Of a DNA stretch of 64,000 nucleotides, positions 52,101 to 55,100 are shown one piece after another. A program made the translations under genes and the position numbers. Source of the DNA: Lampris incognitus (taxonomy: Eukaryota; Chordata; Actinopteri; Lampriformes; Lampridae); NCBI RefSeq assembly GCF_029633865.1, contig NC_079220.1:57267538-57331537 (forward strand), in the 5' to 3' direction. The notes under the pieces were generated by a model that saw nothing but the letters and a program-made list of their open reading frames with translations, did no database searches and was not told the origin of the DNA. The stretch's first letter is position 1. The number at the start of each line of letters is the position of its first letter.

Positions 52101-55100
52101 CTGTCCAACCTGAGCTGTCCATCTAATATAATCATTCCTAATCCTGTCCTTCTTCATCACTCCCAATGAAAATCTTCGCATCTAAAATTCTGCCACCTCC
52201 AGCTCCACCTCCTGTCTTTTTGTCAGTGCCACCATCTCCAAATCATATAACATAGCTGGTCTCACAACCATCTTGTAAACCTTCCCTTTAACTCTTGCTG
52301 GTCCCCTTCTGTCACAAATCACTCCTGACACTCTTCTTCACCCACTCCACCCTACCTGCACCCTCTTCTTCACCTCTCTTCTGCATGCCCTGTTACTTTT
52401 GACAGTTGACCCCAAGTATTTAAACTCATACGCCTTCATCACCTCTACTTGCATCCTCACCATTCAGCTGTCCTCCCTCATTCACGCATAGGTATTCCGT
52501 CTTGCTCCTACTGACTTTCATTCCTCTTCTCTCCAGTGCATACCTCCACCTCTCCAGGCTCTCTTACACCTGCACCCTACTCTCGCTATAGATCACAATG
52601 TCATCCACAAACATCATAGGCGACGGAGCCTCCTGCTTGATCTCGTTCATCAAGCTGTCCATCACCATTGCAAACAAGAAAGGCATCCCCCTGGTGAAAC
52701 TCCTCACTGTCAGGTGAAAAGAAGCGGCTGGCGACTCCACATGTATCAGAGGAAGCATGTGGTAGTCTGCAGCCCTCTCCGGATCGACAGAGGGGGTGGA
52801 GCAGCGACTGGGACGGCTTGGAAGAGTGGGGTATTTGGCCGGATACAATTGGGGAGAAAAGGGGGGGGGGGCGATTTGGCCTGCCCGATCCACGGATTAA
52901 CCGCAGCAGATGCAGATGTACACATAATTTGTCCAAACCAAGCGAAAAATGAGTATTAAATTGGAGTTAATTTCGTTATATCAGACAGACTTCACTTGTA
53001 GATTACTCATGGAAAATGAGAACTGCGAGTTTTCCTTTTTGTATCAAGCAGCAAAAAGTTGTAGCATGAGGTGTTTTGAGTTAATTTACCTTCACATTGC
53101 ATATACTGCGATGTGGCTACTGCGCACGCGCACATCGAAATGACGATGCTGAAACTATATATTGTGCAGCCCTAATTTGTTCCACCACTCGTTACGGGGC
53201 AAAGTGATTGAGTACTGCAGCACGTCACCATTCAGCATTGCAAATGAGGTTCATATGTTGGGTTAACCATGAGCAGAGAGGAGACAAGTGCCTCTCCAAC
53301 AGCCCATAGTTGCCCTTGAGTCGTCAGCTAACCTTGACATGTACCATATCTGGGGATCAGCCCGGCCCCAAGGCTTAAGCTTAGTGCACTGTATGAAGGA
53401 CTGGGAGAGGGGACTGGGTGCAACGCGGAGCTCTGTCTAAGATCCTCTCAACCTTCTAACCTGGCCAGATGGCTAAGAAACGACCCAGTGTAGCCACAGT
53501 TAAACCAGGTTGATGTCACTCATGGCTAGAGTCTGGCTTGCGGGTTGGACGGCGGTATATGTGTACCAATTTAAAGTACTGTATACTTTAAACTTTAATA
53601 TAATTAGAGTTTGCATACCAACCCGTGTTTTGAAAATGAATGGAGGAATTTGATAGGTAAAATAAACGCATAATTATATAAATGAATAATGGGGTAAAGC
53701 TGGAAGTGTGAAAAGAATTACAAAGAACCAAATCGCCCAATTAAAGGTACAATCTGTAATTCAAATGTAAACAAATGAGTCGCCCTGCTGCCAAAATACA
53801 GAGCCCAGGACTGGAATCTGCCATCGCTCCCACGTGTATTGTAAGGTCTGTTAATGTGAGGACGAACACCAAATGGAAATAAAGTCTGGGTTTGTAATGT
53901 ATTCTGATGCTACAAAAGGTTTGTTCACATCGATGATGTCTGTAAAACAAGTCTATATTTCAATTCCCATCAGTTGAGAAAGATGCAAAATGTTTATTTT
54001 CAGGGTGCTTTCACACTAGGAACCTGGGCCCGGATCCCAGTACACTTGACCCCAAAGTGTGGTTGTTTGAGTAGTGTGAACACTGCATAACATCCACTTG
54101 AAAAGGTGGTCTGGAGTACGGTTCACATGTACTCGGGTACGGTTCGCGTCAGGTGTGAAAACAACTGCACCAAAACATGGAAGTGGATTGCTATCCTACA
54201 AAGGCATTTCTCAACGCTGCCCATCTCCTCCCAAATCTGTGTATGCGTACAGCACATGCCGATCTCGTGTGTAGATACGCAAGTGTACTCGGGTCCAGAA
54301 CAACATTACAACATTACTAATGTGAAAGCTGAGTGGGGGGGGGGTGTCATACCTAATATAGTATTTCATATCTCAATTTATATGGTCAAATAAATCACAG
54401 ATTGGGCCTTTTAAGTCAGCAACTGGAAATAAAGTTTGAAACTCCATCCATCCATCCATTATCCAAACCGGTTATCCTGCTCTCAGGGTCGCGGGCAGTC
54501 ACTGGGAGGCAGGCGGGGAGACACCCTGGACAGGCCACCAGGCCATCACAGGCCGGCAATGGAGCAGGTCAAAGTCCCTGTGCCGCTCAGTAGTGGGATC
54601 GCGCCTGTGAATAGACGCTGTAGTGCAGCCTGAGCAATACAGTGGGATCCAGTCTCTTAGCCGGGCATGGTGGTGTGCGTCTGTAATCCAAGTCACCGGG
54701 ACACTGAGGCTGGCGGATCATTTGAGCTCAGGGGCTCTGGGCTGCAGTGGACTGTGCCGATTGGGTGTCGGTATCGATATGGTGCTCTGGGGGGAGCCCG
54801 GGACCGTCAGGTCATCTAAGGAGGGGTGCACTGGCCCCGGCTGGCAACGGAGTTTGAAACTCAGATGGGAGCTTTTCTGCTTATGGCTCAATTACAATTC
54901 TCTGCAAACATGAAAAACCTGTTAGACACTCATTACCAACCACCGGATAGGCTTTGTATGTAGTGTTGAAACTGGAGATATTTTTGACACATAAATCAAA
55001 CATGAATATGAACTTGCCTCCATCTGTGTTCTGAACAGTGACAGGATCTTTTTTTGTAAGTGACAGACCTACTGAATGCAACCCGAGTAGATTGTATGTG

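Follow-up and report, generated by a model that had tools for sequence, protein, structure and literature searches.

One insertion at positions 54433–54862 of the window (the whole 64-kb stretch of DNA analyzed) joins the tail of a V-SINE on the minus strand to a permuted copy of 7SL RNA on the plus strand. With a probability of about 0.72, we consider it to be the product of a single LINE-driven insertion, in which twin priming drew on a host RNA for its second template and one template jump took place as well. The sequence-only reading had described a 12-bp target-site duplication (TSD) around both parts, and this was confirmed: the flanking copies of AGTTTGAAACTC agree in 12 out of 12 positions, and the motif was found exactly twice in the window (Table 1). 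Twin priming, chimeras of LINEs with host RNAs, and template jumps are already known, and the event presented here varies a known process in a notable way without proving the existence of a circular RNA.

Table 1. Components of the insertion, followed by other repeats in the window (window coordinates).
Feature	Position	Strand	Basis
Left TSD copy, AGTTTGAAACTC	54433–54444		Exact 12-bp repeat; single copy at the paralogous site L100
V-SINE 3′ tail, 5′-truncated	54445–54552	minus	BLAST to other tails in the window, and alignment
7SL nt 190–299, reaching the natural 3′ end, which finishes in two U (GTCTCTT)	54549–54658	plus	BLAST to gene L002; Rfam RF00017
Single additional A between natural 3′ and 5′ ends	54659	plus	Sequence
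7SL nt 1–205, 12-nt internal deletion	54660–54852	plus	BLAST to gene L002; Rfam RF00017
Right TSD copy	54851–54862		Exact 12-bp repeat
V-SINE tails entering CA repeats just past CACAGGGCC	3272–3391, 41290–41422, 43317–43440, 45236–45367, 56225–56346		
Large tandem arrays, periods of about 46–57 and about 242–257	18229–19550 and 21309–22492		

The minus-strand part belongs to a family that we take to be V-SINE. Compared with a consensus typed from the window alignment, it carries four substitutions at 108 aligned sites and one 20-nt deletion, and its terminal CATCCATCC lies directly 3′ of the left TSD copy. The focal element comprises the tail only; a longer copy at locus L005 features A-box-like and B-box-like motifs, and ARAGORN detected no tRNA either in L005 or within the 64-kb window. 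The focal tail is cut at CACAGGGCC, and the tails at two other loci, L070 and L074, are cut at about this point as well. Neither the 7SL DNA nor the V-SINE tail DNA had a match in viral and prokaryote sequence collections.

Both 7SL pieces were recognized by BLAST against the 7SL gene L002, the left one with 94.5% identity over 110 nt and the right one with 84.4% over 205 columns, including the 12-nt gap around nt 112–123 (approximately 54769/54770). At the Rfam gathering threshold, no matches were obtained across the window; a relaxed search recovered Metazoa_SRP twice below the gathering score, namely from 54660 (model positions 1–204, E = 2.7e-15) and up to 54658 (121–299, E = 0.0021). The two 7SL ends overlap by 14–16 nt (190 to 203/205) and not by the 8–10 nt estimated at first, and according to the Rfam structure line, the apical hairpin of helix 8 is present twice. 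Between the copies of this doubled stretch, three differences exist (nt 191, 195, and 201), two of which fall on CpG sites; later mutation can explain them. The right piece is 3′-truncated and has no A-tail; its terminus at nt 205 lies next to the hairpin of helix 8 and matches the target over 2 nt, AG being common to 7SL and the right TSD copy. A longer resemblance of the TSD to 7SL beyond nt 205 was judged by eye and dismissed as weak (7/12). At the joint between V-SINE and 7SL, four nucleotides are common to both, these being CAGG (54549–54552) in place of the GGCC previously proposed.

One TSD around both parts and an empty paralogous site argue for the arrival of the whole structure in a single event. 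As an estimate of chance, 227 out of 200,000 random pairs drawn from the window, which contains large tandem arrays, had a 12-mer repeat no more than 3 nt away from both boundaries. A second copy of the flanking region is located on C13, about 217 kb further along (3/3 candidates scored). At this site (L100), which is paralogous and not orthologous, the sequence reads straight through one TSD copy and contains neither V-SINE nor 7SL; the occurrence of either half alone, named beforehand as the observation that would speak against a joint insertion, was thus not encountered there. Up to and through the site, 67 out of 70 bases are identical between L100 and the focal locus; the wider flanks are 78–91% alike, and L100 possesses approximately 160 bp of other sequence shortly past the site. 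Two or more separate insertions, or a rearrangement at the DNA level, appear very improbable: nothing specific speaks for them beyond the density of repeats in the window, and they are at odds with the single TSD around the whole, the fact that no TSD was seen at the inner junctions, the empty paralogous site, and the similar divergence of the parts (4/108 for the V-SINE tail, 20/193 for the right and 6/110 for the left 7SL piece). Against the single-event model, the permuted stretch contains a 12-nt deletion that lies outside the proposed steps.

To place the insertion among the 7SL loci of the genome, the window's own assembly (1.48 Gb, 537 contigs) was searched. Five full 7SL genes, 96.7–100% identical to L002, are located on C18 (22.16–23.27 Mb), L002 having a TTTT stretch at its 3′ end. 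BLAST censuses with all candidates scored were carried out for nt 190–303 (18/18) and nt 150–216 (22/22). These queries would miss 7SL ends below about nt 150, and for the nt 1–183 query, 40 out of 73 candidates were scored, the number of V-SINE chimeras with short 7SL pieces being a lower bound. The nt 150–216 census comprised the five C18 genes, four tandem copies on C16 (L067, L068, L069, and L071; 15.429–15.438 Mb; 81–82% identity to L002), a further C16-type locus (L094), two copies of a 7SL-derived SINE (L086 (= L013) and L098 (= L016)), an A-tailed retrocopy (L007), two fragments (L072 and L075), and seven loci with an antisense V-SINE and a sense 7SL (the focal one, L070, L074 (= L004, L009), L005 (= L010), L087, L093, and L095). 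An antisense V-SINE therefore adjoins 7 of the 11 dispersed non-SINE copies (7/10 if L094 is regarded as a gene locus), the chance of such adjacency being about 0.002 per copy as roughly estimated from the window's eight tails, among which the focal one is counted. With a further pair, L073 (= L011), in which 15 nt separate the two elements, eight antisense V-SINE/sense 7SL loci are available, i.e., seven in addition to the focal one. In the stretch examined, no V-SINE match was found beside L102 and L103, both of high identity, nor beside L012, L017, L021, L023, and L026. In an analogous search for captured U2, 46 out of 44,744 candidates were scored; all were full-length, and 45 resided in one C18 array.

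Clear TSDs were identified at five of the eight loci (focal, L074, and L005 with 12/12, L087 with 12/13, and L095 with 10/10 positions), a weak one at L070 (11/13), and none at L093 and L073. Among 300 random right boundaries per locus, those performing equally well numbered 1 for the focal insertion, 0 each for L074, L005, L087, and L095, 10 for L070, 139 for L093, and 214 for L073. In all six loci with a TSD, its first 2–3 nt are also part of 7SL; for human and chimpanzee 5′-inverted L1 elements, PMC2912911 reports microhomology of 2–5 bp at that end in about 70% of cases. The 7SL pieces end at nt 198, 203, 205, 211, 237, 238, 248, and 252, four of the eight being around the tip of helix 8, and with ends spread over nt 198–252, the focal entry at nt 205 is ordinary. 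The chimera L095 carries 7SL of the C16 type from about nt 5, suggesting that this type is or was transcribed.

Owing to the seven other loci, the clear TSDs at five of eight, and the overlap of 2–3 nt at the joint, twin priming that recruits 7SL RNA as its second template is well supported and recurrent in this genome. Two of the eight V-SINE/7SL loci without a TSD, and one with a weak TSD, speak against it. The earlier proposal of a left cDNA primed on V-SINE RNA and a right one primed internally on 7SL is supported for the focal locus by one TSD, opposite orientations, and microhomologies of 2 and 4 nt, and further by the empty paralogous site and the seven loci of the same layout. Chimeras of L1 with other RNAs are described to include 7SL, their antisense partners being read as twin priming (PMC13174262), and tailless retropseudogenes are described as 3′-truncated in loops and primed by 2–18 nt (PMC5322556).

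The proposed course would be as follows. One nicked target strand would serve as the primer on the 3′ tail of a V-SINE RNA, whose reverse transcription would give the left end of the insertion. The other target end would anneal by two nucleotides, AG, within 7SL beside the tip of helix 8, and the 7SL cDNA would be extended from nt 205 to nt 1. Having reached the 5′ end of the RNA, the enzyme would continue by an end-to-end jump to the 3′ end, trimmed and carrying one added A, of the same or another 7SL molecule and copy it back to nt 190, whereupon both cDNAs would join at CAGG. For the priming on V-SINE, the entry into 7SL, and the final joining, the anatomy is directly visible and repeated at other loci, and that they took this course is deduced from established twin priming; the jump is suggested by the exact end-to-end join in the sequence. 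Against the jump, it must be noted that it is deduced from one locus, and that no second 3′-to-5′ joined 7SL was found.

The join itself reads GTCTCTT-A-GCCGGG, and gene L002 has GTCTCTTTTG, with TTG continuing after GTCTCTT. In comparison to the TTTT of the gene, two U are missing and one A is added. The statement that the natural 3′ end is joined directly to the natural 5′ end accordingly holds for the two ends, and requires amendment for the A at 54659 between them. In the whole genome, a long join pattern with up to three mismatches matched once, at the focal locus, and its control not at all; it was used in place of a shorter pattern, for which 234 and 224 matches faced 171 and 165 in the control. 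Twelve 7SL copies reach nt 296 or beyond, of which just the focal one runs on into nt 1. The suggested search for further 7SL copies joined 3′-to-5′ within the same genome hence yielded none besides the focal one, either by the join pattern or in the 7SL BLAST census. Maturation of mammalian 7SL is described to consist of uridine trimming and addition of one A, which more than 70% of human 7SL molecules carry (PMC12811392). For the R2 enzyme, jumping is described to require non-templated addition and to proceed best with an overhang of one, and at most two, nucleotides matching the acceptor (PMC8857657), and double template jumps by LINEs are on record (PMC2104539). The additional A fits either origin, RNA 3′ adenylation or non-templated addition.

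The same join sequence is expected from a ligated or circular RNA and from an end-to-end jump, be it in cis or in trans. The template proposed at first was a 7SL molecule either covalently closed into a circle or ligated beforehand, with priming at helix 8 and copying through roughly one complete turn; since an end-to-end jump would give the same product and the join occurs once in the genome, such a template is not supported as necessary. As an explanation, we consider the circle unlikely. It would account for the exact 3′-A-5′ join and for the near coincidence of start and stop (nt 205 and 190). However, with starts and stops distributed uniformly and a jump in trans, the two would lie within 16 nt of each other on a 299-nt RNA with a probability of about 0.11 (approximately one in nine), making the coincidence weak evidence; it mildly favors a circle or a jump in cis over a jump in trans, and a cis jump around one linear 7SL also predicts about one turn. 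Moreover, the join was seen once although 7SL capture recurs in this genome, the doubled stretch would require strand displacement over 14–16 nt, and a pol III transcript, with its 5′ triphosphate, is poorly suited to ligation. Circular SRP RNA does occur in Thermoproteus, as described in PMC4731332, and this lends the idea some support.

The origin of the two 7SL halves was addressed by their divergence from L002, amounting to 20/193 substitutions on the right and 6/110 on the left, which is not a significant difference (Fisher p = 0.20). After removal of seven right-hand variants picked by eye, the values were 13/193 and 5/110 (p = 0.61), and after removal of all variants common to at least two dispersed copies, 7/193 and 5/110 (p = 0.76); this removal is lopsided, as 5–19 dispersed copies span the right-hand differences and 1–5 the left-hand ones. 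The proposed comparison of the halves consequently gave no sign of unrelated divergence, and the excess divergence of the right half is no evidence for two sources, most of it being variants common to dispersed copies. The left-piece difference at nt 286 is common to four of the five 7SL genes. In contrast, G at nt 95 is found in the right piece and in 15 of 18 dispersed copies, and G at nt 153 in the right piece and 15 of 19, both being absent from all five genes, which indicates that the right piece stems from a variant lineage of 7SL instead of the five genes in their present form. Furthermore, T at nt 62 is present in the focal right piece, L009, L010, L012, and L017 and absent from the five genes, a distribution that points to a variant 7SL lineage as the putative source of retrocopies.

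These variants are relevant to a jump in trans between two different RNAs, with the right piece taken from a transcript of a 7SL-SINE or of variant 7SL and the left piece from ordinary 7SL. The left piece cannot derive from the 7SL-SINE, which is devoid of the 3′ part of 7SL; for the right piece, G at nt 95 and 153 also occurs in many of the SINEs, and the undeleted SINE type represented by L013 spans nt 205. Nevertheless, the 7SL of the chimeras L074 and L070, which reaches nt 248 and nt 252, respectively, extends beyond the 7SL part of the SINE, L074 has several of the same variants, so that a full-length variant 7SL is enough, and the left-piece differences are covered by few dispersed copies. 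We therefore rate this combination as quite improbable. Two source RNAs in a more general sense may still apply, the left half being hardly open to variant comparison.

The 7SL-derived SINE is itself a low-copy family, in which nt 1–183 or 1–212 are followed by sense TGCACTTATTGTAAGTCGCTTTGGATAAAAGCGTCGGCTAAATGACTGTAATGTAATG or its end (assigned partly by eye). Its members are L008, L013, L014, L015, L016, L022, L024, L027, and L028, and its two junction patterns, with up to three mismatches, were detected at 7 and 10 places and not in the controls. A hagfish family was named in 2020 as the first SINE1 outside Euarchontoglires, as stated in PMC7245038, and the family observed here may represent an independent fish SINE1. 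The focal insertion was also considered as such an element and rejected, its structure being single-copy and its 7SL part being without the common LINE-type tail. Among the other loci, the 7SL fragments at L072, L075, L103, L023, and L012 are located within or next to a different repeat containing tRNA-like sequence; the flanks of L103 are apparently inverted relative to each other in a fold-back-like manner (by eye), and at L075 a tRNA-Gly (gcc) predicted by ARAGORN adjoins the 7SL piece. Within the gene cluster, L066 (C18:22157982) contains nt 1–76 and 217–301 in normal order with SINE-tail-like sequence between them.

Returning to the twin-priming model, the frequent presence of V-SINE beside 7SL may be related to the specificity of LINEs. 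Two zebrafish L2 LINEs are described as stringent, i.e., in need of the cognate tail, in PMC4176376, where the V-SINE paper is cited with regard to an RTE-clade pair. Were the LINE serving V-SINE stringent as well, 7SL could enter easily at the second DNA end, which would account for the presence of V-SINE beside most dispersed non-SINE 7SL copies of the nt 150–216 census. A more far-reaching version, which we hold to be tentative and on balance doubtful, supposes that this LINE starts on its cognate tail only and is unrestricted at the second end, that SRP RNA, exposed at the helix 8 tip, is the habitual second template, and that in the focal event a single linear 7SL was lapped once in cis by a jump from its 5′ end to its own 3′ end. 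Were the lap in cis true, a pseudo-circular 7SL copy would arise without any circle.

A selected, functional permuted SRP RNA gene was likewise considered, the permuted SRP RNA gene of Thermoproteus with its ends at the helix 8 tip offering a precedent (PMC4731332). The fish copy, however, carries the 12-nt deletion and 26 substitutions across both pieces, positions 54553–54852 fold no better than shuffled sequences (z = 0.17; 112/200), and ordinary 7SL gene copies exist elsewhere in the genome; such a function is therefore extremely improbable.

The results indicate that the far end of a retrotransposition break can repeatedly take SRP RNA as a template, even though a SINE equipped with a LINE-type tail serves as the first one, and the evidence for this replicates within one genome. 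In the permuted copy, an end-to-end jump between mature RNA ends, among them the trimmed and adenylated 3′ end, seems to be naturally recorded, and the copy cautions against concluding from a permuted structural RNA in a genome that a circular RNA must exist. Among the open-literature matches listed, which constitute limited evidence, none reported a permuted 7SL retrocopy or recurrent capture of SRP RNA by a fish SINE.

Several known systems resemble parts of the insertion. L1 chimeras with small host RNAs, 7SL among them, share the opposite orientations within one insertion and one TSD (PMC13174262); here, the first template is a V-SINE tail, 7SL was captured several times independently in one genome, and the focal RNA is permuted. 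The 5′-inverted L1 elements (PMC2912911) are alike in TSD, inversion, and microhomology at the target and inversion joints, whereas the second template here is a different RNA and not that of the same element. Tailless retropseudogenes are comparable with respect to 3′ truncation, the missing A-tail, entry near a loop, and a target match of a few nucleotides, but those outlined in PMC5322556 are copies of single RNAs, whereas in the present case a V-SINE is attached to the RNA copy. End-to-end jumps of a non-LTR reverse transcriptase likewise lead from an exact 5′ end to an exact 3′ end with one additional nucleotide (PMC8857657); compared with the jumps described there and with the tripartite LINE chimera reported in PMC2104539, the jump proposed here would have led onto the same RNA species and would thereby have produced a permuted copy. 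Finally, the permuted, circular SRP RNA of Thermoproteus also has its new ends at the tip of helix 8, a parallel that we take as coincidence: as presented in PMC4731332, the archaeal gene is functional and the ends of its RNA are ligated, whereas the fish copy looks like a dead retrocopy.
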